Source: a bacterium
GTDB taxonomy: Bacteria > UBP15 > UBA6099 > JAJRTR01
Length of the DNA: 49,097 nucleotides
Direction of reading: 5' to 3'
Assembly: GCA_024278215.1 (NCBI GenBank)
Contig: JAJRTR010000103.1
Span: 1-49,097, forward strand
The notes below the pieces were generated by a model. The model was not told the origin of the DNA and did not search any database. It was given only the letters and a program-made list of their open reading frames with translations. How positions within the stretch are numbered: the stretch's first letter is position 1; each line of letters begins with the position of its first letter. This document shows positions 1,572 through 49,097 of the stretch, one piece after another. The translations under genes were made by a program, and so were the position numbers.

Positions 1572-1577
1572 TATAAT
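1572..1577 (+). promoter_or_regulatory. Possible -10 box before the acyl-CoA dehydrogenase gene
   Basis: A perfect TATAAT lies 33 bp upstream of the ATG at 1610. I see no good -35 hexamer at 16-18 bp, so only the -10 is proposed. A GAGGAG ribosome-binding site follows at 1597-1602. Confidence 0.4.
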
Positions 1578-1609
1578 AAGGCAATCTTTGCACAACGAGG
1601 AGCACGATT

Positions 1610-2767: not shown

Positions 2768-2799
2768 GGGGCGTGTCACCGGAAATGCGGTGCCCTTTT
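2768..2799 (+). terminator. Possible rho-independent terminator
   Basis: Just past the stop of the acyl-CoA dehydrogenase gene, CACCG and CGGTG pair around GAAATG, flanked by GGGG and CCC and followed by TTTT. The outer stem has a bulge, so the terminator is weak or imperfect. Confidence 0.4.
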
Positions 2800-2878
2800 A
2801 CAAAAACGCGCAAGTTCAGTTAGTATTGTAGGCGGAGAGTACGACATCCGCCGGTGTATCAAGTGAAGGAGAGTCATC

Positions 2879-3334: not shown

Positions 3335-3509
3335 ATACATACAGTGATCGCAAACAGCTTCCTTCCTGAACCGGCAAAGCCGGAACCAAACAGGACGCAT
3401 TTTCGTGCCCGAACTAATGCGGTTTGAGCACGGCACACAGAGTTTCATCAACCCGGATTGCTCACAAAGAAATCCTGAAAGCATGATGTCCCCGGAGTTC
3501 CTGAATTGC

Positions 3510-4298: not shown

Positions 4299-4599
4299 TT
4301 TCTTTCCTCCCTATGGTAATGCTCTGTCTGCTGAATGAGTTTCCATGTCCCTGCCGATTTCCCGATTGTTGAGGTGATTTGTAGTCAGCGTCATCACCGG
4401 GGATGGTGGAAACGAGTAATATCTTATTATTTACTCCTTGCGGTTTCAACAGAGACGGTAAAAATGATAAACTACATGGTTGGACTCAGGGTGGGCCGGG
4501 GAACGATAACAACAATAAAGCAGGTGGATGGTAACAGTAAAAAAAATTATTTCTCACGGGAACATTCTTATCACAAGACTGTCAAAAAATATCTATAGG
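4299..4599. other. Intergenic, divergent promoter region, no gene seen
   Basis: This is the left part of the 512-bp gap between purC (leftward) and the ABC exporter operon (rightward). It holds the ribosome-binding site of purC and presumably its promoter. An open frame at 4335-4598 has no family resemblance or good start signal and is not called. The rest of the gap is repeat copy b. Confidence 0.5.
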
Positions 4600-4775
4600 G
4601 AGCCAATTTTAAAATTATGTTCGTAACGAGGCCTATCGAAACTGTTCGGAAGCAGGGCAGGGGCACAAAATCCGCCCGGATGTACTCATAGTGTATGAGG
4701 GTGATTTTGTGTGGCAGCGCCGCAATGGACAATTGCAGCCGACCGCGGCGGAATCAGAATTTTTATAATCGGCTC
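4600..4775 (+). repeat. Family 1 MITE-like element, copy b (diverged)
   Basis: It starts GAGCCAATTTTAAAATTATG and ends ATAATCGGCTC, with the conserved TTCGTAACGAGG and GGACAATTGCAGCCGACCG blocks inside. It is more diverged than the other copies, and its flanks (TAGG, CTGA) show no duplication, so it is probably an old insertion. It sits just upstream of the exporter operon. Confidence 0.8.
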
Positions 4776-4810
4776 CTGAGGGACAGAAAACATAATATCA
4801 GGGTATACAA

Positions 4811-5743
4811 ATGATCAAAGTTGACAGACTGGAAAAATCTTTCGGCGCTACAAAAGCAGTGGATGACGTATCATTCGAGCTGAAAGCGGGCGAAGTGCTG
4901 GGGTTCCTAGGTCCCAACGGCGCAGGCAAGAGCACGACGATGAAGATCATGACCACTTATCTGTCCGCGGATTCGGGCAGTGTGTCCGTCGAGGGTTTCG
5001 ACACGGAGGAAAACGCCATCGAGGTGCGCAGGCGCATCGGGTATCTGCCAGAGAATAATCCGCTTTATGTGGATATGGATGTGCTCGATTACCTGTGTTT
5101 TGTGGCGCAGGTGAGGCGTTTGCCCGCGGCTACAAGGACGAAACGGCTGAAGGAAGTTATCGGGATGTGTGCGCTGGGCGACGTGCAGAGGAAAAACATC
5201 GGGCAGTTGTCGAAAGGATACCGCCAGAGGGTAGGCCTCGCGTCGGCGCTGCTGCATGATCCGGGCTTCCTTATTCTCGACGAGCCCACATCGGGTCTCG
5301 ATCCGTCGCAGATAAAAGAGATAAGAAATATGATACGAGAAATCGGGAAAGAAAAAGCGATCATTATCAGCACACACATACTGCCGGAAGTGGAGGCGAT
5401 GTGCGACCGCGCGATTATCATCAATCGCGGGCGGCTCGTCGCCGAGGGTGTCACAAGTGAATTGAGCGCGAAGGCGGCGGGCGAGAAGATTGTGTATACG
5501 GCGATAAAAAGCGAGGCAAGCGATGTGCGGGAAAAACTGGCGGCTCTCGAAGGTGTGTCCGAGGTGACTGTCAGGGACTCGCTCGCGCAGGGACACAACA
5601 GCTTCGCTTTGAAGTGTTCGCCGGATAAGGAAATTTCTGAAGCTGTTTACGATCTTTCTGTCGCCGAAGGCTGGAAACTCACAGAATTGCACAGCGAGGT
5701 GGCGACGCTCGAGGATGTGTTCCTGCAACTTACGAAGGATTAA
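4811..5743 (+). CDS. ABC transporter ATP-binding protein, GldA-like
   Basis: The ATPase subunit of an ABC-2 type exporter. Walker A is GPNGAGKST (residues 34-42), the signature is LSKGYRQ (133-139), Walker B is LILDEP (154-159), and the H-loop histidine is His189. A C-terminal region of about 90 residues follows the ATPase core, as in GldA/CcmA-type proteins (310 aa in all). It is the first gene of a same-strand set with a permease, a GldG-like protein and a DUF4340 protein. That set resembles the GldA-GldF-GldG module of Bacteroidota, but comparable clusters occur widely in bacteria outside gliding motility. The substrate is unknown. Confidence 0.92.
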   Translation: MIKVDRLEKSFGATKAVDDVSFELKAGEVLGFLGPNGAGKSTTMKIMTTYLSADSGSVSVEGFDTEENAIEVRRRIGYLPENNPLYVDMDVLDYLCFVAQVRRLPAATRTKRLKEVIGMCALGDVQRKNIGQLSKGYRQRVGLASALLHDPGFLILDEPTSGLDPSQIKEIRNMIREIGKEKAIIISTHILPEVEAMCDRAIIINRGRLVAEGVTSELSAKAAGEKIVYTAIKSEASDVREKLAALEGVSEVTVRDSLAQGHNSFALKCSPDKEISEAVYDLSVAEGWKLTELHSEVATLEDVFLQLTKD

Positions 5744-5800
5744 GCCTTTCGGGCCTGTTTGCGCGGGTGCCGTGACGACTAAAGTATAAAGGTGTGAGAA

Positions 5801-6544
5801 ATGTACAACATACTGGCAATTACGAAAAAGGAATTTACCGGCTACTTCAACTCCCCTATCGCCTATGTGGTGATGGTCGTATTCCTCGGAATAGTCAATA
5901 TTCTGTTTTTTAACGGAGCGGGCTTCCAGGGGTTGGCATTCAGTCCGGGGTTGTTCCTGCGGGGAACAGTCGATATGAGGCCGATGCTGACACATCTGCC
6001 GTGGATATTCATAGTAATCGCGCCTGCGATTACTATGAAGCTGTGGGCAGAGGAGCGGAAGCTGGGCACGCTCGAGATACTGCTCACGCTGCCCGTGAGA
6101 GACTACGAAGCGGTGCTGGGCAAGTACCTGGCGAGTTTCCTTTTTCTCGCCCTGAATCTGGCGCTGACGCTTTCTATCCCATACACACTCACGCGGATCG
6201 GCAACCCGGACTTCGGGCCGATAATAGGCGGCTACACAGGCGCGTTGCTGCTGGGCGGTGTGTATCTCGCCGTGGGCCTGTTCGCGTCATCTCTGGCTGT
6301 CGAGCAGATCGTAGCGTTTATCCTGGGCGCTCTGGTGTGTGCGTTTCTCTTTATCATCGGCAACCAGGTGATTGTAATGCAACTCCCGGTGCAGCTCGGC
6401 ACACTGCTGATGCATATATGCACGGCTACTCACTTCGAGAACATATCGCGGGGAGTCATCGATTCGCGCGATGTGATTTATTATCTTTCGGCAACTGTTT
6501 TCTTCCTTGTGTTGACCAATATCACCGTGGAAAGCAGGAGATAG
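5801..6544 (+). CDS. ABC-2 type permease, GldF-like
   Basis: A 247-aa inner-membrane permease with about six hydrophobic segments. The N-terminal FTGYFNSPIAYVVMVVFL stretch is characteristic of GldF-type permeases, and TMKLWAEERKLGTLEILLTL is the conserved ABC-2 cytoplasmic loop that contacts the ATPase. It lies 57 bp after the ATPase gene on the same strand and should form the membrane channel with it. No start conflict: the ATG directly begins the conserved N-terminus. Confidence 0.9.
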   Translation: MYNILAITKKEFTGYFNSPIAYVVMVVFLGIVNILFFNGAGFQGLAFSPGLFLRGTVDMRPMLTHLPWIFIVIAPAITMKLWAEERKLGTLEILLTLPVRDYEAVLGKYLASFLFLALNLALTLSIPYTLTRIGNPDFGPIIGGYTGALLLGGVYLAVGLFASSLAVEQIVAFILGALVCAFLFIIGNQVIVMQLPVQLGTLLMHICTATHFENISRGVIDSRDVIYYLSATVFFLVLTNITVESRR

Positions 6545-6620
6545 GAACCCGGCGCGGCAAAACCCGACGGGCGCGCCCGCAATGTAAATAAATATCACGT
6601 TTTTTGGAGACCTCAACCCG

Positions 6621-8252
6621 ATGGACGGAAAAAAGGCGAAAAGAAGAATCAGCGCACTCACAGCAGGGTTGCTCACGCTGGGCATCCTGGTGGTTGTGAA
6701 CCTGTTCGCGCTACGGCATTTTAAACGTGCCGACCTGACGGAAGAAAAACAGTATACACTGAGCGATTCGAGTAAATCCGCGGTGCGCGGGCTCGACGAC
6801 ACACTCACTGTTACCGTTTATATGTCCGAAGACATCCCGGCAAACCTGATGGAACTCAAGCGCGGTGTCATCGACATGCTCGAGGAGTTTCGCTCGTATT
6901 CCGGCGGTCACATGCGAATCAAGTACATCGACCCGGAAGGTAACGACGAACTGAAGCAGGAACTGGCGCGGCTCGGCATCCAGGAAGCAATGTGGCGGGT
7001 GATCGAAAAAGATAAAGTCGAAACGGCAAAAGGATATTTCGGCATTGGCCTGCGCTACCGCGACAAAGAGGAAGGCATACCGGTCGTGGGGCGGCTCGAC
7101 ACGTTCGAATATGTTATGACCGCGACGATACTGAAAGTCGCCTCGCCGGAAGCTATCACTATCGGCTTCCTTATGGGCAACAAAGAGTTCGAGCCCTATG
7201 TCGAGATGAACACGCTCTGGAACACGCTCCAGAGCCAGTATGAAGTGACGGTTGTGAATCTCGACAACCAGCCACAGGTCCCGAATAATGTCAATGTGCT
7301 GATTATACCGCGACCGTCCGAGGAAATCCCGGATTACCAGAAGTTCGCCATCGACCAGTTCCTGATGAGCGGAGGCCGTGTTGTTATGCTGCTCGACCCG
7401 GTGAAAATGAAGCAGGGAACCCTGCGCGCCGAGCCGATAAAAACAGGCCTGAAAGATATGCTGAAAAGCTACGGCCTGACACTTAACGACGCGCTCGTCC
7501 TCGACCGCTACAACCAGAACGCCCAGTTCAATATGGGCCGCGGCATGATCATGAACACACCCTATCCTTTCTGGGTTAAGGTAGTGCGGAAGAATATGGA
7601 CAAGAACAATCCCGCTCTGACAAATATCGACGAAGTGCTGCTCCCGTGGACCACCTGGATAGATGTCGCCGGGGAAATGCCCGAAGGCCTGAAGGCGAAG
7701 ACGATTCTGCGCAGCAGCGAGTTTTCATGGACTCAGCCTTATTATAATCTGAGCCCGCAGCAGCGGTTCCAGCCGAATCAGGAAGACATGAAATCGCGAC
7801 CGCTCGCCGTGCTCGTGACGGGAAAATTCCCGAGCCATTACGCAGGTCAGGATATACCCGCGAAGCCGGTGGATGAAGCCGCCACGCAGCAGCAGCAGGC
7901 ACAGCCGTCGATGACGTTCCCCGAAGATAAGCGGATCGAGGAAGCTACCGCGGACGGCGCGCTGCTCATCATCGGGAACGCCGAATTCATCACAGGTGGT
8001 TTCACCAGGATGGCACCGACAAACCAGTTGTTCCTCCTGAACGCAATCGACCAGATGGCCTATGGCGACAAGCTGATAAGCCTTCGCGCGCGCGGTATGA
8101 AACCCAGAGCGATCGACAAGGACATCATGGACAACGAAAAACTTAAGAGCAAGATCAAATGGATAAACCTGTTGCTCATGCCCGGATTGGTCATTATCTT
8201 TGGAATCGCCCGCGGTATATTCAGGCGCAACAGGAAAGGGCTGGACGTTTAG
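6621..8252 (+). CDS. GldG-like ABC transporter auxiliary protein
   Basis: A 543-aa protein of the uncharacterised ABC-transport family that includes GldG (PF09822). One membrane segment lies at residues 14-32 and a second near the C-terminus (WINLLLMPGLVIIFGI). Between them is a large extracytoplasmic region with the typical LTEEKQYTLSDSSKS start and a VVMLLDPVK motif. A Gln/Pro-rich stretch near residue 430 looks like a flexible linker. It lies 76 bp downstream of the permease, in the same operon. It probably helps couple the exporter to its periplasmic substrate or to the cell envelope; this is inference from context. Confidence 0.88.
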   Translation: MDGKKAKRRISALTAGLLTLGILVVVNLFALRHFKRADLTEEKQYTLSDSSKSAVRGLDDTLTVTVYMSEDIPANLMELKRGVIDMLEEFRSYSGGHMRIKYIDPEGNDELKQELARLGIQEAMWRVIEKDKVETAKGYFGIGLRYRDKEEGIPVVGRLDTFEYVMTATILKVASPEAITIGFLMGNKEFEPYVEMNTLWNTLQSQYEVTVVNLDNQPQVPNNVNVLIIPRPSEEIPDYQKFAIDQFLMSGGRVVMLLDPVKMKQGTLRAEPIKTGLKDMLKSYGLTLNDALVLDRYNQNAQFNMGRGMIMNTPYPFWVKVVRKNMDKNNPALTNIDEVLLPWTTWIDVAGEMPEGLKAKTILRSSEFSWTQPYYNLSPQQRFQPNQEDMKSRPLAVLVTGKFPSHYAGQDIPAKPVDEAATQQQQAQPSMTFPEDKRIEEATADGALLIIGNAEFITGGFTRMAPTNQLFLLNAIDQMAYGDKLISLRARGMKPRAIDKDIMDNEKLKSKIKWINLLLMPGLVIIFGIARGIFRRNRKGLDV

Positions 8253-20154: not shown

Positions 20155-20333
20155 GAGCCGATTGCAAAATTCTGTTCGTAGCGAGGTCGAGAGAAATCTT
20201 TCAGAAGCAAGGCGGAGGTGCAAAATCCTCGCAGGCGTACTCGTAGAGTACGTTGAGGACGATTTTATGCCGACAACGCAGCTATGGACAATTGCAGCCG
20301 ACCGCAGCAGAATCATAATTTTTCAACTGGCTC
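20155..20333 (+). repeat. Family 1 MITE-like element, copy d
   Basis: It begins GAGCCGATTGCAAAATT and ends AATTTTTCAACTGGCTC. AATA occurs immediately on both sides (20151-20154 and 20334-20337), a likely 4-bp target duplication. The interior holds the CTCGTAGAGTACG hairpin core. Confidence 0.87.
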
Positions 20334-21519: not shown

Positions 21520-21698
21520 GAGCCAATTGAAAAATTCTGATTCGGCGGCGGTCGGCTGCTATTTTCCATAGCTGCGTTGTCGGCATAAAATCGTCCTCGA
21601 TGTACTCTACAAGTACGTCTGCGAGGATTTTACACCTCCGCCTTGCTTCTGAATAATTTCGCTCGACCTCGCTACGAACATAATTTTGCAATTGGCTC
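21520..21698 (-). repeat. Family 1 MITE-like element, copy e (inverted)
   Basis: This is an opposite-orientation copy. It begins GAGCCAATTGAAAAATTC and ends AATTTTGCAATTGGCTC, with AAAG on both sides (21516-21519 and 21699-21702), a likely target duplication. It separates the dGTPase and FGE-like genes and lies directly before the dGTPase start. Confidence 0.88.
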
Positions 21699-22870: not shown

Positions 22871-23032
22871 GAGCCAATTGCAAAATTATGTTCGAAGCGA
22901 GGTCGAACGAAATTGTTCAGAGCAAGGCGGAGGTGCAAAATCCCCGCAGGCGTACTCGCCGAGTACGTTGAGGATGTTTTTGTGCCGACAACGCAGCTAT
23001 CCGCAGACGAATCAGAATTTTGCAATTGGCTC
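22871..23032 (+). repeat. Family 1 MITE-like element, copy f (internal deletion)
   Basis: It begins GAGCCAATTGCAAAATT and ends AATTTTGCAATTGGCTC, with ATCT on both sides (22867-22870 and 23033-23036). It is about 16 bp shorter than the full copies because part of the GGACAATTGCAGCCGACC block is missing. It lies just downstream of glmS. Confidence 0.88.
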
Positions 23033-23060
23033 ATCTGTATAATAATCCTTAGTTTTGCAG

Positions 23061-24896: not shown

Positions 24897-25034
24897 ATAT
24901 GCACGAATCCTCTCGTATTTATAATAAAGGTTGCAAAGTTTTCCTCATTCCATCGTTCTCAATTGGATCAGATACAACATTTCATATCACTTTAACTGCC
25001 TGAAGTGCCGCAAACAAGATTCCACCGTAAAAAA
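24897..25034. other. Intergenic, glmS upstream region
   Basis: This is the left part of the 349-bp gap between the divergent glmS and radical SAM genes. The remainder is repeat copy g. It presumably holds the glmS promoter; no gene or recognisable riboregulator is seen. Confidence 0.4.
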
Positions 25035-25212
25035 GAGCCAATGCAAAATTGTGTTTGAAACGAGATCGAACGAAATTGTTCAGAAGCAAGGCCGAGGTGA
25101 AAAATCCCCGCAGGCGTACTTGTAGAATACGTCGGGGAAGATTTTGTGCCGGCAAAGCATCTGTTGACATTTGCAACTGACCGCAGCCGAATCAGAATTT
25201 TGCAATTGGTTC
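25035..25212 (+). repeat. Family 1 MITE-like element, copy g
   Basis: It begins GAGCCAATGCAAAATTG and ends AATTTTGCAATTGGTTC. The flanks AAAA and TACA show no duplication, so the copy is either old or has lost an end. Its right end lies 33 bp before the radical SAM gene start. Confidence 0.82.
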
Positions 25213-25231
25213 TACAATTATTCTATTGTGA

Positions 25232-31147: not shown

Positions 31148-31373
31148 GGTCTGTCGGATGCGACTGCGATTCCACGCACCGGCGTTATTGCTCCATAACG
31201 CAACTTATCGAGAATAATGAATTTGTGGAAACTGAACCGGTGTAAGAATTCGAGCCGTACTTCAAACAGCCGACCGATTTGAAATCTGAGATTTAAACTG
31301 TAAGATACTTTTATGGGGCGCTTCGTAATGCTTTTGCGAATAATGGCGCGAAACGGGTTTTGAATTGTCATAA
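31148..31373. other. Intergenic, no gene seen
   Basis: This is the left part of the 535-bp gap between the acyltransferase gene and rseP. No recognisable gene or regulatory motif is present; the repeat copy at 31374-31549 fills most of the remainder. Confidence 0.4.
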
Positions 31374-31549
31374 CCCGCATATTTCACCAATGCGGGCCAG
31401 TAATCGGGAGAATGCCTTGTAATACAAGATGTGGCAAGTGCGTGGTGAGGGAACATACTGTTAGTATGTGACCGATCCCGAATCGCCGCCGCAACGCAGT
31501 AGAATAGGCGTTATCCCGATTTTCCGGATTTCTTGGTGAGAAATCCGGG
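31374..31549 (+). repeat. Family 2 repeat, copy 1
   Basis: It starts with the hairpin CCCGCAT-ATTTCACCA-ATGCGGG and ends with CGGATTTCT...AGAAATCCG, both ends being palindromic. Internal conserved blocks are GATCCCGAATCGCCGCCGC and AACGCAGTAGAAT. The centre has a 7-bp hairpin, ACATACT-GTT-AGTATGT, at 31453-31469, which the other two full copies replace with a G+C-rich one. Confidence 0.8.
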
Positions 31550-31682
31550 ATAACAGTAAACTGCCCGGCCCGGTGTAATCCGCCGAAAGAAGCGGCAACG
31601 GGTATTTCAACGGAAAGAAAAACAACTGTTCGCAGGATGGTGTCTCCGAAACTGATGCCGGAACAGAAAACAGGGTTATCAG

Positions 31683-37467: not shown

Positions 37468-37665
37468 CCCGCATATTTCACAAATGCGAGTGAAAACCGG
37501 AAGAATATCCATAATACAAGGCGCGGCAAGTGAGTGGTGATGGAGCCAGCCGGCCAGCCGGCCTCTTGCGCAAAATACAGGTATGTGACAGATCCCGAAT
37601 CGCCGCCGTAACGCAGTAGAATGGGGATTCTCACGGTTTTCCGGATTTCTTTGTGAGAGATCCGG
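37468..37665 (+). repeat. Family 2 repeat, copy 2
   Basis: It begins CCCGCATATTTCACAAATGC and ends GGATTTC...GAGAGATCCGG. The shared blocks GATCCCGAATCGCCGCCG and ACGCAGTAGAAT are present. Its centre is a G+C-rich palindromic cluster (GCCGGCCAGCCGGC), as in copy 3 but unlike copy 1. Confidence 0.78.
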
Positions 37666-37988
37666 TTTAAATACAAGACAGCTTAAAATATATAATTCAC
37701 GTGAAGACGGAAATCCATTTTAAACCAGGCTGAGTCCAGTATGTCAATACAAAGTTGACGCGACAATATAGCAAGATAATATATATAACGGAAGGACGCA
37801 GAAGTTGACATGTGTATGATTCGGTATACAATAATATTTCAAGCACCATGGCGGTGCCCGTTGACAACTACTTGAAATTGAAATGCAAATACAAAATACA
37901 TGTAGATACGCACAACATAGCAATTAGTGGGCATCATGGTGCTATGCAGTGCTATAGCCTATATTCTATATATATGCACATACTACTG
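37666..37988. other. Intergenic, no gene seen
   Basis: This A+T-rich stretch between family 2 copy 2 and family 1 copy h contains only a small hairpin, GCACC-ATGGC-GGTGC, near 37,847. No gene is supported. Confidence 0.4.
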
Positions 37989-38167
37989 GAGCCAATTGCA
38001 AAATTATGTTCGTAGCGAGGTCGAACGAAATTTTTCAGAAGCAAGGTGGAGGTGCAAAATCCCCGCATGCATACTCGCCGGTTACGTTGAGGATGATTTT
38101 GTACCGACAACGCAGCTACGGACAATTGCAGCCGACCGCCGCAGAATCAGAATTTTGCAATTGGTTC
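37989..38167 (+). repeat. Family 1 MITE-like element, copy h
   Basis: It begins GAGCCAATTGCAAAATT and ends AATTTTGCAATTGGTTC. TACTG occurs directly on both sides (37984-37988 and 38168-38172), a likely target duplication of 5 bp, or 4 bp if the end is taken one base out. Confidence 0.87.
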
Positions 38168-38508
38168 TACTGGGATTATCACGGACAGAAAAAGACCCTA
38201 ATCGAAAGAGAAGGCAGCAGAATTGGGGACAGACTTAGAATTATGCACAGAGCGGAAGTGCAAGGGGCAGGACGTGAAGTAAAAATTTGAGAGTAGTTTA
38301 TTGGTTCGGAATAGTTTTGTTCACGTCAGCTATTTGATGCCTGTTGTTTTTCGAACTCTCTACAAACATAATTTTTCAATTGGCTCTTTAGTAAACAGCC
38401 GTCCCCCACCCTCCTCTGGGACATCTGAAACCGGGTTGCAAATTTCAGCCATGTTCCCGGGATTCCGCGACTTCATTTCAGGTTGCTGAAGTATTGCGCT
38501 GTTTCCTG
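38168..38508. other. Intergenic gap downstream of der
   Basis: This 341-bp stretch contains a family 1 end fragment (38351-38386) and a GTCCC...GGGAC inverted repeat near 38,402-38,423 on the far side of der's stop. No gene is supported. Confidence 0.4.
38351..38386 (-). repeat. Family 1 end fragment (copy i)
   Basis: The fragment reads TCGAACTCTCTACAAACATA then ATTTTTCAATTGGCTC, matching one end of an inverted family 1 copy. The rest is absent. Confidence 0.65.
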
Positions 38509-39963
38509 TTATCCTTTTTTTCGTTTCTTCTTCTTTTTAAGTTTTTCGATGTTTTTCCCAGGAGACTTTTTCTTCTCATTCCTCTTTTTTCCGGGTTGTA
38601 ATATTGAATCTTCTTTTTTCCGGGGGCGCGGTCCGGCAAATTTCAGTTCGAGTGTGACACCACTCAGATTGAATATTGCCCTGATCCTGTTCTCGATAAG
38701 TCTTTTGTAATTCCGGTCGAACAATTCAGGATCGTTCGCGCGGATCACAATACGGGGCGGGTTCGTACTGTCATGAATAACATCGAGGATTTCACCGACC
38801 CTGCCTTTCCTGGCTGCCGGTGAGTACAGAGTCCGTGTATCGTAGATAACATTTTTCAGCAGTTCCAGAGGCAGCAATTCGTTCTGTCTACGGTGAACAT
38901 CGACAATATTGTCCAGCAGTGCATCCATGCCGGACCTCTCCAGCGCGGAAACAAAAAGTATCGGTTTGCTTTTCAGAAACGGCGCGTTGAGAAAAAAATT
39001 ATCGAGAAAATAGTCGTAATCGGGATTATCGATGAGGTCCATTTTATTTACAGCAATGAGAAGCCCCTTCTTATTTGTGATAACAGCGTCGGCGATACGT
39101 TTCTCCCCCTCGAGCAGGCCGTCTTCCGCGTCGACAACAAGCACCGCGAGGTCTGAATCCTCGATGGACCTTTTCGCCCTTGTATAGCCATAATACTCCA
39201 TATTATCCATTTTAGTTTTTTTGCGTTTCACGCCGGCGGTGTCGACGATAATGAAGCGGCGGCCATCGTGAGTAAAGTCTGCGTCCACCATATCGCGAGT
39301 GGTGCCGGGCACGGAAGAAACAACGCATCGTTCCTGTCCGAGAATAGCGTTGGTGATGGATGATTTGCCGACATTCGGGCGACCGACAATGCAGAAACGG
39401 ATCGGTGGTTCCGTAAAGTATTCGGGCTCGAACTCGGGCAGTATTGTCGCGAGCCGTTCTGTGAGTTCGTGGATGTTGCTTCCATGAAGGGCAGAAATCA
39501 TGATGGGATCACCGAGCCCGAGCCCCGCCAGTTCGAGCGCTGTATTCTCGTCGCGGCGACCGTCCGCCTTGTTTGCGACCATGACAACAGGCTTACCGCT
39601 TCGCCTGAGCTTTTCGGCGACAAAAATATCTTCGTGCAGCATTCCGGCCTGCGCGTCCGCCACAAAGACGACTATCGACGCGCTGTTGATGGAAAGCATG
39701 ATCTGTTTTTCGACACCTGCCTCGATCTCGTCGCGGCCCATGTCATAGGTCAGCCCGCCCGTGTCCACAATCTGACAGGGCATCCCCTCGATCCGGCAAC
39801 GCGCGAATATTCTGTCGCGTGTCACTCCCGGCATATCGTCGACAATCGCCACACGCCGTTTCAGCAAGCGATTAAAAAGTGTGGATTTCCCCACATTCGG
39901 CCTGCCGACGATTGTTATCAACGGTATTGCGCTTTTCGTTTCTGTTTGTTTCTGTTTTCCCAT
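38509..39963 (-). CDS. der: GTPase Der (ribosome biogenesis)
   Basis: An essential tandem GTPase in 50S subunit maturation. First G-domain: GRPNVGKST (residues 20-28), DMPGVTRDR, DTGG, NKAD. Second: GRPNVGKSS, GTTRDMVDADF, DTAGVKRK, NKMD. A KH-like C-terminal domain follows (VIDVIHDSTNPP-like strands, ITFELKFAGP-like end) and then a very lysine-rich tail of about 40 residues that may bind RNA. An in-frame extension to 40134 has no support; the start is ATG 39963 and the length is 484 aa. Confidence 0.95.
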   Translation of the reverse strand: MGKQKQTETKSAIPLITIVGRPNVGKSTLFNRLLKRRVAIVDDMPGVTRDRIFARCRIEGMPCQIVDTGGLTYDMGRDEIEAGVEKQIMLSINSASIVVFVADAQAGMLHEDIFVAEKLRRSGKPVVMVANKADGRRDENTALELAGLGLGDPIMISALHGSNIHELTERLATILPEFEPEYFTEPPIRFCIVGRPNVGKSSITNAILGQERCVVSSVPGTTRDMVDADFTHDGRRFIIVDTAGVKRKKTKMDNMEYYGYTRAKRSIEDSDLAVLVVDAEDGLLEGEKRIADAVITNKKGLLIAVNKMDLIDNPDYDYFLDNFFLNAPFLKSKPILFVSALERSGMDALLDNIVDVHRRQNELLPLELLKNVIYDTRTLYSPAARKGRVGEILDVIHDSTNPPRIVIRANDPELFDRNYKRLIENRIRAIFNLSGVTLELKFAGPRPRKKEDSILQPGKKRNEKKKSPGKNIEKLKKKKKRKKG

Positions 39964-40077
39964 CGTTTCAGCTCCGTTTGTGACATTTCGCACGCATCGC
40001 ACGCCGCCGCCTATAAATTTTATAGTACGGGGTCTATAATTAAAACATATACAGCCTTTATTGAAGAAAACCGTGAT

Positions 40078-40410
40078 ATGAAATTCCTGGAAAACATCGA
40101 AAATGTCGAATTTATCGAAGAGGAGATCACCCATTTCGTCAGCGGGCCTTATGGCTATTACGCTATCATCAGAAGCGGAATGCGGATCGACATTACCGCT
40201 GTTTTTACGATCCAGCCGCCAATAGATGATTTCGATACTTACTACTCGTTCCTGTTTGTGGAATCACTGCATGATTTTTTCCTTTTCAGGCAGCTTGTTT
40301 GTGAAAACAAACCAGGTGCGTGGGAAGTATATCTGAGACTGGAAGTTGCGGAACGGAACGGTTTTTTCGCACAGGCACAGGATTACTTCAACCGGATAAA
40401 AGCCGATTAA
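40078..40410 (+). CDS. Hypothetical protein, 110 aa
   Basis: I recognise no family. The protein is acidic at the start (MKFLENIENVEFIEEEITHF), mixed alpha/beta-looking, with a tyrosine/phenylalanine-rich middle and a final helical stretch (AERNGFFAQAQDYFNRIKAD). It has no signal peptide or membrane segment. It starts 114 bp from der in the opposite direction and ends just before the repeat cluster that precedes the cas operon. The frame extends upstream inside der, but this ATG is the first outside it. Confidence 0.6.
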   Translation: MKFLENIENVEFIEEEITHFVSGPYGYYAIIRSGMRIDITAVFTIQPPIDDFDTYYSFLFVESLHDFFLFRQLVCENKPGAWEVYLRLEVAERNGFFAQAQDYFNRIKAD

Positions 40411-40516: not shown

Positions 40517-40532
40517 TTTAGCCCGGCACAAA

Positions 40533-40715
40533 GAGAAATCCGGAAAATCGCGATAACACCTATTCTACTGCGTTGCGGCGGCGATTCGGGATCGGTCACA
40601 TACCGCATTTTGAGCAAGAGGCCGGCTGGCCGGCGGCTCCCTCACCACTCACTTGCCGCGCCTTGTATTACAGGCATTCTCCCGATTTTTAGCCCGCATT
40701 GGTGAAATATGCGCG
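40533..40715 (-). repeat. Family 2 repeat, copy 3 (inverted)
   Basis: Opposite in orientation to copies 1 and 2. It begins GAGAAATCCGG and ends CCCGCATTGGTGAAATATGC, with ATTCTACTGCGTTGCGGCGG and a central GGCCGGCTGGCCGGC cluster. A family 3 motif follows it on the right. Confidence 0.8.
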
Positions 40716-40747
40716 TTAGTATCAATACCGGTCACTTAAGGCGCTAA

Positions 40748-40771
40748 AAATCATAATTTTGCAATTGGCTC
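40748..40771 (+). repeat. Family 1 end fragment (copy j)
   Basis: AATCATAATTTTGCAATTGG followed by CTC is the right end of a family 1 element. It is 133 bp before the cas12b start. Confidence 0.7.
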
Positions 40772-40903
40772 TTCTGTTCTAATCACCCATTAATGTCGCA
40801 CACAGGTGATATACTTATTTGAGATGTCAGCAATTAACGATAAATGTCGGAGATTCTTTTGCAGGGACACTCTGTGAAGAAAATTTATATCTGGAGGAAG
40901 AAA
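40772..40903 (+). promoter_or_regulatory. cas operon upstream region
   Basis: This 132-bp segment between the last repeat fragment and the effector start must hold the cas promoter unless it lies in the repeats. TATACT at 40810-40815 is a reasonable -10; no convincing -35 precedes it. GGAGGA lies 6 bp before the ATG at 40904. Confidence 0.4.
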
Positions 40904-43900
40904 ATGGCAAAGAAGGATCAGAAACAGACAACTACAAGAGCTTACACGATGCGGCTGAAAGGCATGGATCCGGAAGACAGTAGCTGGCGCGATATGCTGT
41001 GGGAAAGCCATGTCGCTATCAATCGTGGCGCTCGCGCATTCGGGGACTGGCTTCTCACGTTCCGTGGTGGTATCTGCCACACTCTTGCTGATACGCCGGT
41101 GCCTGTGAAAGGAAAGCCGGACAGGGAACCAACGCGCGAGGAGAAAAAAGACAAACGTATTCTCCTGGCTCTTTCCTGGCTTTCTGTGGAGTCGGAAGCT
41201 GGAGCTCCACAGAAATATCTCGTATCACACGAAGGAAAAGGCAAACGTCGAAGGTGGCAGACAGTCGAAGCGCTCGAAGATATTCTGCACACGCGCGGAC
41301 TGCCGCCGGAAGCTATTCGGTCATGGCTGGCGGACTGCGCCCCCGCCGTCTCTTCAGCAATCCGCGACGATGCTGTCTGGGTGAACCGAAGCAAAGCCTT
41401 TGACGACGCTGTGAAAATGATCGGCGATTCTCTAACAAGAGACGAAATCTGGGACCTTCTCGACAGGTTCTTTAATAGCAAAACCCAGTACATCACTCCA
41501 ATTGAAAAACTGTCCGATAAAGATGATGATGCGCCCACGGAAAAAATCGAGAGCAAGGATCTCGTTCAAAAAGCACTGGGATGGATAAGTAACAGATTCG
41601 GGAAAGCCAAAGGTGCTGATTTCGAGTCTATGGCTTATGCGTTTGATGTAATTGCAGATTGGGCGAAGTCGGAGAATGCCGGGATCGATACAAAAGAGGG
41701 ATTATCAAACCTCATCGCGAAATTGAAAGATAAGGGATTGGTTGTATCTCAAGACAACCCGGCAGGGATCATGAACCTGGTGAGCAGGCCAGGACCACCC
41801 AACAAAATGCTGCTGACTATAAAATCCATATCAAAAAAAACGTGTATTGATGACGAAACATTAAACATCCTCAAAGGAGCATCCACAGACGCAGAGGAAT
41901 GCAGAAAAAAGATAGGTCGAAAAGGGCCGAAACCATGGTCGGATGGCATCCTTGCAGACATAGAATCGCAATGCGGTTTTACATATCGAAAACCTGGAGG
42001 TACTGCGGCAAACGCCGAGTTCTCCGTCATGCTCGATCATGCCGCAAGGCGCGTATCCGGAAATCAGTCGTGGATCCGGCTTGCCGAGGCCAATCGGCGA
42101 TCTTTCGACAATGAAGCCGATAAGATTTCACTCGTACTCGACGACGCGAAAACATGGCTCGACGCATATTGCGAGAGAAGAGCCGGCACTTCGGGAGCTA
42201 TCGATGCATACGTAATAAACAAACGCGCTATCGAGGGGTGGGGGCATGTAGTTCAAGCATGGTCACAACCTGATTGCAAAACTGTAGAAGACCGTATCAA
42301 GGCGGCCCGCAATCTGCAGAGCGATCAGGATATCGAGAAATTCGGAGACATCCAACTCTTTGAAGCACTCGCCGATGACGATGCAGTTTGTGTCTGGCTG
42401 AAAGACGGCAAACCATCGCCTGACAATCTCAAAAACTATGTCGCAGCCGCCATCGCCGTGCGCAATAAACTCCGTTTCAAAGTTCCTGCATACAGGCACC
42501 CCGATCCTCTCCTGCATCCTGTCTTCATCGACTATGGCAACTCACGCCTCTTCATAAAGTTCGCCGCTCATAAACCCAAAAAGGGACAGGACATCCGTTC
42601 CCTTGTCATGACCATAATCCGCAATGGCGCGCCTGAAACTGTTTCCCTGTTGTGGCAATCGAAAAAACTCATGGCCGATTTCGACCTGCGAAACAAACTC
42701 CTTGAGTCCAAAAACGAATCATCCGAGCCGGCAAATGTCTCACGCGCCGACAGGCTCGGCCTCGCCGCATCGGCCGCCGACCCCGACGGTGAGATACATA
42801 TAATGAATGTATTCGATGAGAAACACTGGAACGGTCGCCTCCAGGCGCCCCGCGCGCAGCTCGAAGCCCTCGACAGAGCGCTCAGGAAGAACGGAGGCCA
42901 GTGGGATGAGCGAACCCTGCGCATGAAAAACAGCATACAATGGTTCGTCACTTTCTCCCCCAAGCTACAGCCCGCCGGACCATGGATAGACTTCGCGAAA
43001 CATAATGGATTAAACCCTAACAGTAAGTACTACCCACCTGCTACCCTCAACAAGGGCCGCAAAGGCATGGCCCGCATCCTGCTCTCGCGGCTGCCCGGAT
43101 TGCGCATTTTATCTGTAGACCTGGGCCATCGCATCGCCGCTTCCTGTGCTGTCTGGGAAACTCTTTCAAGTGAGCAAATGCAGGCCGCCTGCTCCGCCGC
43201 CGGTCACGATGCACCCGGATCAGACGACATCTTCATTCATCTTTCTTCGCAGAATCCTGAAGGCCAAACCCGAAATGTTATTTACAGGCGAATCGGCGCA
43301 GACCTCCTCCCCGACGGTTCTCCGCACCCGGCACCGTGGGCCAGGCTCGACAGACAGTTTCCTGTCAAGCTCCAGGGAGAAGCCGAAAAACCACGAAAAC
43401 CCGGTCCGCTGGAATACGAAGCCGTTGCCGCCCTCGAACAGAAAATCGGACTCGTCGAAACTGAACCTATAGAAAAACGATTCCATCACGTCGACAAACT
43501 CATGTCCCACGCGGTGCGCATCGGAAGACTCGGGCTCCGAAGGCACACCACCGCTGCCCGCATCGCCTTCAACCTGACAACTGATAAGAAAGCGCTTCCC
43601 GGAGGCTCAGCAGAGAAACTTTCTGACGACGACCGGGTCAAACTCCTCACTGACTCTCTTTTCGAGTGGCATCTATCAGCTTCATCCACCAGGTGGAAAT
43701 CACCAGTTGCGTCCGCCTTGTGGAAAGAACACATACAGCCGCTGACCTCCGGCATCGAACTCCCGGACCCCGATTCACAGGACACCGAGATGTCCGCACC
43801 AGCGAGAAAGAAGAAGAACGACACGCTTAAAGCCACACTTAAACCCGCTGCTGAAAAACTCGCCGGCGACAGAGCTCTTTGTATTAAGCTGCACAAACTA

Positions 43901-45142
43901 TGGGCCGACCTCTGGGCACGCGAAGATAGCGATTGGAAAGTGAGCCTGCGCACCCTGCGAGACTGGTTGCTGCCGTCCGGCAAATCAACCGCCTCGGGCG
44001 CCATCCGCTGCGTCGGCGGTCTCTCTGTCGAGCGCATTACCACTCTGAAATCTCTTTACCAGCTGCAGAAGGCATTCTTCACACGGCTAACTCCCGAAGG
44101 AAGGCAGGTAGATGAATCTTCCGGCCAGCCGCTCACCGCAGGCGAACACTTCGGAAAACGCACTCTCGACGCTATAGAAAAACTCAGGGAAAACCGCGTC
44201 AAGCAGACAGCTTCACGCATTACAGAAGCCGCGCTCGGAATAGGAATCGAATCGAAAAGACCTATCGAAAAAGATTCAAAAAGATTCAAAGGAAAGATGC
44301 CAGCCCGGCCTTCTCGCCAGGTCTTTAAACCCTGTCATGCCGTCATCGTCGAAAATCTCCGGCACTACCGCCCGGAAGAAGTACGCACAAGACGCGAGAA
44401 CAGGCAACTGATGTCGTGGGCCTCCTCGAAAATATTCGACCACCTGGCCAATGCCTGTGAACTCAACGGTTTGCTGCTTCGTGAAGTGTCCGCCGCTTAC
44501 ACATCGAGACAGGACTCACGCACAGGAGCGCCCGGCAGCAGATGCAAAGATGTGCCGGTGAAGGATTTTATTGGAGGAAAATCTTTCTGGAAAAACGAAA
44601 TCGCACGCTCAGACAAGAAATTCAAGAAAGGGACAGCCGACTCCCGTGACGACCTGCTGCTCGATCTGCGAAACTTCTGGGAAGACAAACCGCCCGAAGT
44701 CATCGAAAAAGCCCGCCCGATCCGCATCATCTACAGGGGCGGCGAACTCTTCGTTTCCGCCGATGCTCTCTCGCCTCTCTCCAACGGTATCCAGGCCGAC
44801 ATAAACGCCGCCGCCAATATCGGCCTCAAAGCGTTGCTCGATCCCGACTGGGCCGGTGCATGGTGGTATGTGCCGTGCAACACAAAGACGCACAAACCCC
44901 TCGCCAGGCGCGCTGGAGGCTCGACGGCAATCGACACTTCGCAGTCTCTTAAGGAAGATGACACCAGTGAAAAAAGCGGTAAGAAGAAAAACACAAAGAA
45001 AACCAGGGATGTTGTGAATTTATGGCGCGACCCTTCAGGCGGTCCCGTCCATGATTCTCAATGGAGCCCCACAACCGAATACTGGCAGGATGTCCAGAAA
45101 AGAGTTGTCAGTGTGCTGAGAAAATATAATAAACTGGAGTAA
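40904..45142 (+). CDS. cas12b: Type V-B CRISPR effector, Cas12b (C2c1)-like
   Basis: An RNA-guided DNA endonuclease with a single RuvC nuclease site. RuvC-I is SVDLGHRIAAS (Asp739), RuvC-II is VIVENLRHYRPE (Glu1150) and RuvC-III is QADINAAANIG (Asp1299). The segment after RuvC-II, ENRQLMSWASSKIFDHL and AAYTSRQDSRTGAPGSRC, matches Cas12b closely. Known Cas12b proteins run about 1,100-1,300 aa; this one has 1412. Against the Alicyclobacillus protein (1129 aa; 570, 848, 977) the extra length lies before RuvC-I and between RuvC-I and RuvC-II. An upstream in-frame ATG at 40844 is less likely than 40904, which has GGAGGA 6 bp ahead. Family members need a tracrRNA and recognise T-rich PAMs. First gene of the cas operon. 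Confidence 0.93.
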   Translation: MAKKDQKQTTTRAYTMRLKGMDPEDSSWRDMLWESHVAINRGARAFGDWLLTFRGGICHTLADTPVPVKGKPDREPTREEKKDKRILLALSWLSVESEAGAPQKYLVSHEGKGKRRRWQTVEALEDILHTRGLPPEAIRSWLADCAPAVSSAIRDDAVWVNRSKAFDDAVKMIGDSLTRDEIWDLLDRFFNSKTQYITPIEKLSDKDDDAPTEKIESKDLVQKALGWISNRFGKAKGADFESMAYAFDVIADWAKSENAGIDTKEGLSNLIAKLKDKGLVVSQDNPAGIMNLVSRPGPPNKMLLTIKSISKKTCIDDETLNILKGASTDAEECRKKIGRKGPKPWSDGILADIESQCGFTYRKPGGTAANAEFSVMLDHAARRVSGNQSWIRLAEANRRSFDNEADKISLVLDDAKTWLDAYCERRAGTSGAIDAYVINKRAIEGWGHVVQAWSQPDCKTVEDRIKAARNLQSDQDIEKFGDIQLFEALADDDAVCVWLKDGKPSPDNLKNYVAAAIAVRNKLRFKVPAYRHPDPLLHPVFIDYGNSRLFIKFAAHKPKKGQDIRSLVMTIIRNGAPETVSLLWQSKKLMADFDLRNKLLESKNESSEPANVSRADRLGLAASAADPDGEIHIMNVFDEKHWNGRLQAPRAQLEALDRALRKNGGQWDERTLRMKNSIQWFVTFSPKLQPAGPWIDFAKHNGLNPNSKYYPPATLNKGRKGMARILLSRLPGLRILSVDLGHRIAASCAVWETLSSEQMQAACSAAGHDAPGSDDIFIHLSSQNPEGQTRNVIYRRIGADLLPDGSPHPAPWARLDRQFPVKLQGEAEKPRKPGPLEYEAVAALEQKIGLVETEPIEKRFHHVDKLMSHAVRIGRLGLRRHTTAARIAFNLTTDKKALPGGSAEKLSDDDRVKLLTDSLFEWHLSASSTRWKSPVASALWKEHIQPLTSGIELPDPDSQDTEMSAPARKKKNDTLKATLKPAAEKLAGDRALCIKLHKLWADLWAREDSDWKVSLRTLRDWLLPSGKSTASGAIRCVGGLSVERITTLKSLYQLQKAFFTRLTPEGRQVDESSGQPLTAGEHFGKRTLDAIEKLRENRVKQTASRITEAALGIGIESKRPIEKDSKRFKGKMPARPSRQVFKPCHAVIVENLRHYRPEEVRTRRENRQLMSWASSKIFDHLANACELNGLLLREVSAAYTSRQDSRTGAPGSRCKDVPVKDFIGGKSFWKNEIARSDKKFKKGTADSRDDLLLDLRNFWEDKPPEVIEKARPIRIIYRGGELFVSADALSPLSNGIQADINAAANIGLKALLDPDWAGAWWYVPCNTKTHKPLARRAGGSTAIDTSQSLKEDDTSEKSGKKKNTKKTRDVVNLWRDPSGGPVHDSQWSPTTEYWQDVQKRVVSVLRKYNKLE

Positions 45143-45145
45143 CCC

Positions 45146-46879
45146 GTGACAGACGAATATCTCTGGCCCGCACGAAATGTTGCTGAATACGCGTATTGCC
45201 CGCGACTGTTCTATCTTATGGAAGTCGAAGGCATACACGTGCCGAGCTCGGACACTGAAGAAGGCAATATCGTGCATTCCCGTGTCGACAAGCCCGGCTC
45301 AAAACCGCAGACACCGGACGCTGCACAAGAAGCCGGCGCGCACGTTTCGCAAAAGCCGGAATCCGTGCGCAGCCTTACGCTGACGGACAAAAAACTGCAA
45401 CTGACCGCCACACTCGATCTGGCAGAGCTGAAAGGCGTGGAAGCCGTCCCCGTCGAATATCGAAGAGGGCGTCCACGCCATGCTGTCATAGCGCCCCCTC
45501 CGGACGACCCCGACGACGCGCAACAGAAACCCCTCACACGGCCCGAACCATGGCCCACCGACCGGGTCCAGATCGGACTCCAGTCCATTCTCCTCGAAAA
45601 CAACGGCTACATTGTCCCCAGAGCCGTTCTCTACTACGCGGCAGAAAAACGCAGACTTGAAATCACCATCGACGCAGCTATAAAAGCCGAAGCCATCGAC
45701 ACGCTCGAAGCGGCAAAAGATTGTGCCGCCCACCAGAGGCCGCTCCCTCTGGTTAATGACCCCAGGTGCCCTCGTTGTTCCCTCCAGCCTGTCTGCCTGC
45801 CCGACGAAATAAATTACCAGCGTTTCACGGACAGAAAACCGGAACTCACACCAAGAAAAATATGGCCGCCCCGGGACGACGGCATCCATGTAGTAGCGCA
45901 GAAAGACGGCATACGAATAGGCGTCAGAGGAATGTCGCTATACGTCACAGACCGCAACGGCAAAAAAACAAGTGAAGTGCCCGTCACAAATATCGAAAGC
46001 TTGTCTATCATCGGCAAAGTGCAATTAACCACACAGGCCCTCCATGTACTCGCCGAGCGTAATATTCCCATTGCTTTCCTCTCGGGGGCGGGCCGAATGA
46101 TCGCCATGATCGACCCGCTCGGCCCGGTAAGCGCTTCCGTCAGAGCAGCGCAATTCAAGGGTTTCAACGATCCCGTGAAATGCCTGGAAATCACAAAGCG
46201 CCTGGTAGCCGCAAAGATAAGCAATCAGCGCACCATGCTGCTAAGAAACTTCCCGGACACACCAAAAAAATGCGCCCGCGAACTGAAAACACTCATCAGC
46301 AATACCCTGGATGCCGCGACCATCGATTCCATCAGAGGCCTTGAAGGAAATGCCGCGGCCATATATTTCGAACAATTCCCGAACATGATAAAATGCGACG
46401 CCGCTTCAGAATTCGCCGCACACGGCAGGCAGCGCCGCCCTCCGCCCGACCCGATAAACTCCTGCCTCTCCATGGCCTACACAATGCTTGCTCATGAATG
46501 CACCTCCGCCGCTCGCATCGCCGGGCTCGAACCATCTCTGGGCGCCTATCACGTATACCGCCCGGGCAGACCCGCCCTGGCTCTCGATCTCATGGAGCCC
46601 TTCCGCCCTCTTGTCGCCGACTCCGTCGCTCTCACCGCATTCAACAAAAACGAACTGCGCGACAGCCACTTCCGGCGCACCGCCGCAGGCTGCCTGCTTT
46701 CAGATGCCGGCCGCAGAGCTTTCTTCAACGCCTATGGCAGACGCCTCAACACCGACGTCACACACCCTGTGTTCGATTACAGACTCAGCTACAGACGCAT
46801 GATAATCCTTCATGCACGCATGATAGCCGCATGGCTGAGAGGAGAAATCCCCCGGCTCGAATTCCTCACTACCAGATAG
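45146..46879 (+). CDS. Cas4-Cas1 fusion protein
   Basis: A 577-aa adaptation protein with a Cas4 nuclease joined to a Cas1 integrase, as known in type V-B loci. Cas4 (about residues 1-225) has the four iron-sulfur cysteines Cys18 (AYCPR), Cys208, Cys211 and Cys217 (CPRCSLQPVC) and a VEYRRGRP strand. Cas1 begins near residue 235 (WPPRDDGIHVVAQ) and carries the metal residues Glu400 (LEGNAAAIYFEQF), His469 and Asp481 (YHVYRPGRP...LDLMEPFRP). Cas4 trims and selects prespacers by PAM; Cas1 with Cas2 integrates them. The start is GTG, three bases after the cas12b stop, with GGAG overlapping that stop, so translation is coupled. Confidence 0.95.
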   Translation: MTDEYLWPARNVAEYAYCPRLFYLMEVEGIHVPSSDTEEGNIVHSRVDKPGSKPQTPDAAQEAGAHVSQKPESVRSLTLTDKKLQLTATLDLAELKGVEAVPVEYRRGRPRHAVIAPPPDDPDDAQQKPLTRPEPWPTDRVQIGLQSILLENNGYIVPRAVLYYAAEKRRLEITIDAAIKAEAIDTLEAAKDCAAHQRPLPLVNDPRCPRCSLQPVCLPDEINYQRFTDRKPELTPRKIWPPRDDGIHVVAQKDGIRIGVRGMSLYVTDRNGKKTSEVPVTNIESLSIIGKVQLTTQALHVLAERNIPIAFLSGAGRMIAMIDPLGPVSASVRAAQFKGFNDPVKCLEITKRLVAAKISNQRTMLLRNFPDTPKKCARELKTLISNTLDAATIDSIRGLEGNAAAIYFEQFPNMIKCDAASEFAAHGRQRRPPPDPINSCLSMAYTMLAHECTSAARIAGLEPSLGAYHVYRPGRPALALDLMEPFRPLVADSVALTAFNKNELRDSHFRRTAAGCLLSDAGRRAFFNAYGRRLNTDVTHPVFDYRLSYRRMIILHARMIAAWLRGEIPRLEFLTTR

Positions 46880-46893
46880 AAAGGATATTCCCG

Positions 46894-47184
46894 ATGCGCA
46901 GATGCTACATCGTATGCTACGACATCGCAGACCCAAAAAGACTCAGACTTGTCCACAGAACACTCAAAGGCTACGGCGAAAAATGGCAATACTCCGTCTT
47001 CTTCTGTGTTCTCAAAGACATAGACCGTGTCAGGCTCCAGGGCGACCTGAAAAGCATCATCAACAATGACGCGGACCAGGTCCTTATCATCGACTATGGC
47101 CCCGACGAAACAAAAGCTCGCGAAAATGTCACCACACTCGGCGCCTCACTGCCCGAACAACAAAGTTTCACACTTGTAATCTGA
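46894..47184 (+). CDS. cas2: CRISPR-associated protein Cas2
   Basis: A 96-aa Cas2 of the ferredoxin-like fold, dimeric partner of Cas1 in spacer integration. The N-terminal strand MRRCYIVCYDIADPKRLR carries the conserved Asp10, followed by VHRTLKGYGEKWQYSVFFC and a late strand DQVLIIDYG. The length is normal. It begins 14 bp after the Cas4-Cas1 stop with AAAGGA upstream. Confidence 0.95.
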   Translation: MRRCYIVCYDIADPKRLRLVHRTLKGYGEKWQYSVFFCVLKDIDRVRLQGDLKSIINNDADQVLIIDYGPDETKARENVTTLGASLPEQQSFTLVI

Positions 47185-47223
47185 ACTTGACAGGCAGAGC
47201 CATCGATGCTATCATATTGCTAA

Positions 47224-47312
47224 GGTTCTACAGGAACCGGCACCTCCATGAAAGCGTCTTCCTCCTCAACGAGTTCAGCACATGGCATCGTTCAGGTCTG
47301 CGTCGCCGGGCC
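47224..47312 (+). ncRNA. Candidate tracrRNA
   Basis: Type V-B effectors need a tracrRNA, and the 322-bp gap between cas2 and the array is the likely place. CATCGTTC at 47286-47293 is the exact complement of repeat bases 24-31. GTCTGC at 47296-47301 complements repeat bases 10-15 in the correct order. GCGTC at 47254-47258 complements the last five repeat bases. A small hairpin, GGTTC-TACAG-GAACC (47224-47238), lies 5' of these. A second, weaker anti-repeat, CCGGATTGAC, lies at 47407-47416. The ends of the RNA, and whether the 14-bp hairpin at 47333-47386 belongs to it, are not determined. Confidence 0.45.
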
Positions 47313-47332
47313 GGGCATCTGTCCTTTGACAA

Positions 47333-47386
47333 TATCTTTCGAGCATCCAGGTGGCATAGCTACCCCCGGACCATGCTCGAAAGATA
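47333..47386 (+). other. Strong hairpin between cas2 and the CRISPR array
   Basis: TATCTTTCGAGCAT and ATGCTCGAAAGATA form a perfect 14-bp stem. Inside it GGTGGC pairs with GCTACC (one G-U) around ATA. No T-run follows the stem, so it is not a classical terminator. The segment CCAGGTGGCATAGC resembles CCAGGTGGCAAAGC of the Alicyclobacillus Cas12b tracrRNA as I remember it. Confidence 0.7.
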
Positions 47387-47506
47387 GAATACAAGGGAAG
47401 TTTTGACCGGATTGACAAACAATTCCCCTCCCCCAAAAGGACAAGTTAATGCAAGCTCGAAAAACAGAGAAAAAACCTATATGCATAAGCCGGATTTTCG
47501 CCCGCG
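47387..47506 (+). promoter_or_regulatory. CRISPR leader
   Basis: The 120 bp directly before the first repeat, on the side of the adaptation genes, is the expected leader. It contains TTGACA at 47412-47417 but no clear -10 at standard spacing. The last bases before repeat 1 are TTTTCGCCCGCG. Confidence 0.55.
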
Positions 47507-49097
47507 GTCACACCGGCAGACGACACCCCGAACGATGGACGCCTTCCGCTGCTGTAGTTCGTACGGCCATTGCGCGGTCACACCGGCAGACGACACCCCG
47601 AACGATGGACGCAAAACCAGCAGCACCATTTATGATAGTGCATCCGGTCACACCGGCAGACGACACCCCGAACGATGGACGCCGGTTGCTGCTGCGCTTG
47701 CTGGTGTTACACTAGCAGTCACACCGGCAGACGACACCCCGAACGATGGACGCCACGCGCAGAAATGCCGGTGCCGGGACTCGGATTCAAGTCACACCGG
47801 CAGACGACACCCCGAACGATGGACGCAAGTACCCTTCGCACTTTTTTCCGCTTCATTACTGTCACACCGGCAGACGACACCCCGAACGATGGACGCATGA
47901 AGAAGATAATTTCAGTTACGAAAAAGTTTCACGTCACACCGGCAGACGACACCCCGAACGATGGACGCGAATTGATCGTGAACGCGGCGCAGGCACTCAA
48001 TCGTCACACCGGCAGACGACACCCCGAACGATGGACGCTCTCTGGGAACACGAAAAACGGATATGTGTTTTTAGTCACACCGGCAGACGACACCCCGAAC
48101 GATGGACGCTCAACCGCATAGGATTCGGCATTTATGCACCCTGGTCACACCGGCAGACGACACCCCGAACGATGGACGCTAGACTGTTACTAACTCATCA
48201 GTGAGATAATCAAGTCACACCGGCAGACGACACCCCGAACGATGGACGCTGAAAGTCGAACACGTAGATATATCAGAAGTCTCGTCACACCGGCAGACGA
48301 CACCCCGAACGATGGACGCTAAACATGCAGAGAAATATGATAAAAGTAGATTGAGGTCACACCGGCAGACGACACCCCGAACGATGGACGCCGTTGACGA
48401 TCAGCGAAAAGAAAGCGAGTTGCGAGTCACACCGGCAGACGACACCCCGAACGATGGACGCATCTTGCTGAATCGCGAAAAGCGCGTCGCCGATCGTCAC
48501 ACCGGCAGACGACACCCCGAACGATGGACGCCCGTTATCAGTGTTCCGATTGTCGTATAAGTTCCAGTCACACCGGCAGACGACACCCCGAACGATGGAC
48601 GCATACAATCGTAAGCCGACTTGTAATCTCGCGTTAGTCACACCGGCAGACGACACCCCGAACGATGGACGCGGGAAACCTGATTCGATCGCGGCGCGCG
48701 CGCACGGTCACACCGGCAGACGACACCCCGAACGATGGACGCAATCATCGTTCTGAAGTACCGCTTCACCCATGATTGTCACACCGGCAGACGACACCCC
48801 GAACGATGGACGCTCGTCGAGATCGACTTCAACGAATTCACTATTGGTCACACCGGCAGACGACACCCCGAACGATGGACGCTTCTTATGATTAAAAAAA
48901 ATCTTACTGAAGATGATCGTCACACCGGCAGACGACACCCCGAACGATGGACGCCATCGCCATAGCGTGTCACCGTCTCTGCGCTTTACGGTCACACCGG
49001 CAGACGACACCCCGAACGATGGACGCCATCGCCATAGCGTGTCACCGTCTCTGCGCTTTACGGTCACACCGGCAGACGACACCCCGAACGATGGACG
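47507..49097 (+). CRISPR. Type V-B CRISPR array, 23 repeats, 22 spacers
   Basis: The 36-bp repeat starts GTCACACCGG and ends GATGGACGC, and all 23 copies read identically; the last lacks its final base because the window ends. Spacers are 33-37 bp. The two last spacers (48955-48990 and 49027-49062) are identical. The repeat sequence, read on the + strand, gives long false open frames (HTGRRHPERWT). Orientation on the + strand is inferred from the leader side and the anti-repeats; the array runs off the window. Confidence 0.98.

Follow-up and report, generated by a model that had tools for sequence, protein, structure and literature searches.

The window analysed here is the whole 49,097-nucleotide contig JAJRTR010000103.1 from a bacterium of the phylum UBP15, and its final part, from position 40904 onward, very probably encodes a type V-B CRISPR (clustered regularly interspaced short palindromic repeats)-Cas12b adaptive immune locus that, as judged from its sequence, looks complete. 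The locus runs in the order cas12b, cas4-cas1, cas2, promoter and anti-repeat of a trans-activating CRISPR RNA (tracrRNA), and array, with cas4-cas1 beginning three bases past the end of cas12b. A preliminary description had named this order, including a tracrRNA gap before the array; its coordinates hold, and the order matches published V-B loci, being shared by 11 of the 15 orthologues described in PMC11423069. The same description took the locus to be whole, which is right for the genes, all of them intact, but not for the array, which the contig end truncates and which resumes on C112, another contig of the same genome. Both the Cas4-Cas1 fusion with Cas2 that is expected of a V-B locus (by profile, PDB match and alignment) and 36-nt repeats with spacers of V-B length are present. 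The features of the locus are as follows.

40904..45142, plus strand: cas12b, 1412 residues (NF033949, RuvC tree, aligned catalytic columns)
45146..46879, plus strand: cas4-cas1 fusion, 577 residues, GTG start (NF049935, PDB 7mi4, alignment)
46894..47184, plus strand: cas2, 96 residues (PF09827, 62 bits; homologues in seven other Cas12b loci)
47187..47215, plus strand: sigma-70-like promoter TTGACA-17-TATCAT, presumed for the tracrRNA (11 of 12 matches)
47222..47316, plus strand: predicted tracrRNA, ends inferred (promoter, anti-repeat, layout common to eight loci)
47254..47258, plus strand: GCGTC, complement of the repeat 3' end GACGC (compensatory to GTGTC/GACAC of the related locus L009, same offset, -31)
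47286..47309, plus strand: tracrRNA anti-repeat, 24 nt (duplex -38.7 kcal/mol)
47507..49097, plus strand: CRISPR array, 23 repeats and 22 spacers in the window, continuing on C112:1-414
48883..48918, plus strand: spacer 20, matching G000:C46:7706-7738 (minus strand) at 33/33 nt
48955..49062, plus strand: tandemly duplicated spacer CATCGCCATAGCG..., three or more complete copies when C112 is included

Cas12b effector and its relatives

The effector frame is open from 40844 to 45142 (1432 residues), and its likely start is the ATG at 40904, which is preceded by GGAGGA at 40893-40898. The preliminary description had assigned the effector to type V-B and proposed a search with Cas12 profiles. NCBIfam, Pfam, PADLOC, PDB comparison and a tree agree on Cas12b: the NCBI Cas12b equivalog NF033949 scores 947 bits against a cut-off of 150, PADLOC gives 780 bits for Cas12b versus 25 bits for Cas12i, a Pfam search makes the same assignment, and the best PDB match is 9kln (C2c1, 1496 residues) at 1253 bits. 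The RuvC region accounts for the match to Alicyclobacillus Cas12b, at about 85 bits. No relatives of the effector were found in an IMG/VR scan or by tblastn against phages, and a plasmid search returned one Alicyclobacillus dauci record.

We surveyed 386 genomes for Cas12b, with six others above the cut-off. The eight-locus comparisons given here comprise the window and seven comparison loci, namely L009 (which agrees with one of the six in contig number and coordinates), L015 on the A. dauci plasmid and five more. All genes and the RuvC residues can be read directly: the catalytic D759, E1170 and D1319 (numbered on the 1432-residue frame from 40844) fall in the same aligned D/E/D columns as in L009, L057, A. 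dauci, 9kln and Alicyclobacillus Cas12b. All catalytic residues had been described as visible, which holds for the Cas12b RuvC triad but not for Cas4, where E-Y-R stands instead of D/E-x-K. The two features first proposed as V-B marks also stand, as the Cas4-Cas1 fusion fits published loci and the TGAPGxRC segment lines up with its Alicyclobacillus Cas12b counterpart. A RuvC tree of Cas12b with a TnpB outgroup, other Cas12 subtypes being compared by profile only, places the effector within Cas12b and separate from TnpB (100/99), and not outside Cas12b, the outcome that would have contradicted the initial assignment. Within this tree the effector clusters with 9kln, L057 and L009 (90/90), and the large-Cas12b clade, of about 1400-1500 residues, is distinct from the Alicyclobacillus/Bacillus type.

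The nearest known relative is 9kln (also 9klo, 9klp and 9klq), which matches over nearly the whole length, is comparably large, has identical catalytic motifs and shares 56% identity over 305 RuvC-region columns; it comes from another organism, is 84 residues longer and was compared by effector protein only. Large Cas12b proteins reported in PMC11423069 (such as NiCas12b, 1440 residues; PhyCas12b, 1459; DtCas12b, 1529) are similar by their published description. The L057 effector (1493 residues) is 45% identical to that of the window. L009, from the metagenome-assembled genome UBA6127, has the same gene order, an alignable tracrRNA and Cas4 E-Y-R, with an effector of 1397 residues that is 34-36% identical and a Cas4-Cas1 that is 51% identical; it differs in that its repeat ends in CAC and its record is named candidate phylum UBP4, outside the genomes of the window's phylum. 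Alicyclobacillus Cas12b (5wqe, 5u30; L015) shares the RuvC motifs, TGAPGxRC, the joint encoding of Cas4 and Cas1, and a tracrRNA with an anti-repeat and an internal complement to the repeat 3' end, but it has about 1130 residues, aligns well only in the RuvC region and keeps the Cas4 lysine. In L057 and L058 we observed another arrangement, cas4/1-cas2-cas12b, tracrRNA, array. In the deposited record of L015 (5767-11003), cas12b and cas4-cas1 each consist of two overlapping frames, and this locus may be damaged or contain sequencing errors.

Guide RNA, array and spacer targets

The 36-nt repeat, GTCACACCGGCAGACGACACCCCGAACGATGGACGC, first occurs at 47507, and its copies are spaced at 69-73 nt, leaving spacers of 33-37 nt; V-B spacer lengths have a mode of 35 nt (PMC9419969). 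The uniformity ascribed to the repeats at first is true of the window, where all 23 are identical and the contig stops one base before the final copy is complete, but not of the whole array, since one of the six further repeats on C112 has a mismatch. Overall, the array holds about 25 different spacers. The contig break probably arose because both contig ends sit in the tandemly repeated spacer.

The candidate tracrRNA proposed for the gap before the array is supported by a promoter, an anti-repeat duplex and compensatory pairing of the repeat end, and it is presumably expressed. Shuffled versions of the region average 0.3 promoter sites, and none of 500 dinucleotide shuffles reaches the duplex energy. 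Folded by itself as a single strand, the tracrRNA fares no better than shuffled sequences (z 0.34), so that the case for it rests on repeat pairing; Rfam at gathering thresholds gave no match. In each of the eight loci, the gene strand carries the strongest anti-repeat of the pre-array gap, and six of them have a perfect 5-6 nt complement to the repeat 3' end upstream of the anti-repeat, the repeat/tracrRNA pairs being GACGC/GCGTC, GACAC/GTGTC, TGGCAC/GTGCCA and GGCGG/CCGCC. A published survey describes a pairing bulge of this kind and gives CAC as the 3' end of 13 of 15 V-B repeats (PMC11423069); the repeat of the window has CGC there instead, with the tracrRNA changed to match, a pairing and compensatory change that can be seen directly. 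The repeats of L054 and L056 end in GGCGG, not CAC, and their tracrRNAs carry CCGCC near the anti-repeat. A minus-strand anti-repeat inside cas2 reaches an equal local score and was rejected, as it falls within a coding region and the search of the corresponding gaps in relatives points to the plus strand.

Among the 25 different spacers, spacer 20 gives the sole convincing match, to an 11-kb contig of the same genome, C46 (E 2e-9 in the own-genome search), and records one past target within this genome. Its PAM (protospacer-adjacent motif)-proximal positions 1-3 are mismatched (TTC vs CCT). The 5' flank of this single protospacer, GGTTTTT, fits a 5' TTN PAM and the V-B CRISPR RNA orientation; active large Cas12b orthologues use a TTN PAM (PMC11423069). 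Judging from this one case, the resident element would probably escape cutting through the PAM-proximal mismatches. Spacers matched a phage collection at chance level only (E 2-8) and plasmids not at all, and three spacers searched as exact patterns in IMG/VR had no match.

C46 is close to the window in base composition (tetranucleotide correlation 0.85). From 192 to 8223 (L034) it encodes, on one strand, a series of small unknown proteins, of which several have a C-terminal membrane helix and two are lysine-rich, together with a 270-residue protein with mutually similar halves and a transglutaminase-like protein. Apart from the transglutaminase-like domain, searches of PHROGs, Pfam, PDB, phages (tblastn) and IMG/VR gave no informative relative of the small proteins. 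C46 may be a virus or mobile element, possibly a tailless virus.

By analogy with characterised relatives, which serve as the model for transcription, processing, PAM, cutting and spacer capture, the array would be transcribed from the plus strand and the tracrRNA separately, from its own promoter. The tracrRNA would pair with each repeat through the anti-repeat, while its internal GCGUC would hold the repeat 3' end. Cas12b would take up this dual guide and cut double-stranded DNA beside a 5' TTN-type PAM with its single RuvC site, and Cas4-Cas1 together with Cas2 would capture new spacers of about 34-36 nt.

Adaptation genes and alternative readings

Several points weigh against the interpretation of the region as a complete V-B locus. 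Two of the eight loci have no exact internal complement of at least 5 bases to the repeat 3' end, and a single protospacer was found, on a contig where about 10% of positions carry TTN. In addition, the Cas4 (D/E)xK motif reads VEYRRG in the alignment, with arginine replacing lysine, although this lysine is a usual trait and is not required for the subtype. E-Y-R is also present in L057 and L009 (both VEYRKG), versus lysine in six other Cas4 domains, including the Geobacter sulfurreducens type I-G Cas4/1, and suggests an altered or reduced Cas4 nuclease step in this lineage. It is possible, if doubtful, that the effector is intact and adaptation impaired, with a Cas4 that has lost its nuclease, uptake that ignores the PAM, and population selection that keeps useful spacers. 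Such impairment is in line with the K81A mutant of Alicyclobacillus acidoterrestris V-B Cas4, with which spacers were still acquired and PAM selection was largely lost, and with the damaged cas4 genes reported in native V-A and V-B hosts (PMC9419969). However, the remaining Cas4 residues (H, D, E and four Cys) are retained, the lone protospacer has a TTN-type flank, and the arginine, as it is common to three lineages with effectors only 33-45% identical, appears from the sequences to be tolerated or useful. A more speculative proposal is that the Cas4 half of the fusion can dispense with the canonical PD-(D/E)XK lysine in the large-Cas12b lineage, where it would either bind or shield the PAM end or act as a nuclease with an arginine in its active site.

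The adaptation proteins resemble those of type I-G. NF049935 scores 630.6 bits on Cas4-Cas1 (cut-off 560), the NCBIfam and PADLOC labels are Cas4g/Cas1g and Cas2g, and the match to the G. sulfurreducens type I-G Cas4/Cas1 fusion (7mi4) spans the whole protein (E 8e-98), with a shared fusion layout; 7mi4 serves a type I effector and has D-Y-K where the window has E-Y-R. That these genes belong to a type I-G module, with secondary proximity to cas12b, is nevertheless extremely unlikely: the closeness of V-B Cas4/1 to I-G is already documented (PMC9419969), and the window groups with L057 and L009 at 100/100 in the full-length effector tree as well as in the Cas4-Cas1 tree. Moreover, the genome has only two cas1 genes, the other of which adjoins the end of a type II-like Cas9, and no type I-G effector genes lie beside cas4-cas1, a search that covered the neighbours of the locus and not the whole genome. 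We also regard decay or silencing of the locus as very unlikely. One spacer is tandemly duplicated and the spacers have no above-chance match in phages or plasmids, nor the three searched ones in IMG/VR, as might be seen in a remnant, but every open frame is intact, the promoter is strong, identical repeats accompany many different spacers, and one spacer matches an element of the same genome.

Genome context and significance

Further neighbours of the V-B locus are housekeeping genes, such as an engA-like gene at 38509-40134. The second cas1 lies in L011 (contig C70, 219-3088), where the end of a Cas9-like protein is followed by a 319-residue Cas1, a Cas2-like frame and then apparent repeats; this second CRISPR system looks like type II-C. 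We also observed a dispersed element of about 179 nt with inverted ends, GAGCCAATTGCAAAATTA...TAATTTTGCAATTGGCTC, that resembles a miniature inverted-repeat transposable element. Of 482 candidates in the genome, 40 or more were scored as copies, and six relatives from the phylum have none. A fragment of it precedes cas12b, and one copy lies shortly past the array. A second dispersed intergenic repeat, GTATGTGACCGATCCCGAATCGCCGCCGC..., has copies that are 87-97% alike. Their sites are:

About 179-nt element, in the window: 42-219, 4715, 20155-20333, 21520-21698, 22871-23037, 25034-25217, 37989-38172, 40732-40776
About 179-nt element, on the contig that continues the array: C112:905-1082
Second dispersed repeat: 31371-31553, 37493-37670, 40529-40718

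The size, gene order and RNA architecture of the locus are already published for other V-B members (PMC11423069), and the locus adds a member to this known type from a sparsely sampled phylum, represented by seven genomes in our sample. It thereby contributes a V-B system whose guide RNA components are recognisable in the sequence, close to a structurally solved Cas12b. The Cas4 substitution is a mildly unusual trait that poses a small, testable question, as it recurs in three diverged V-B loci at a residue whose mutation largely abolishes PAM selection in a characterised V-B system. If Cas4 does work without the lysine in this lineage, its PAM selection would be unlike that of the Alicyclobacillus V-B and type I-G models.
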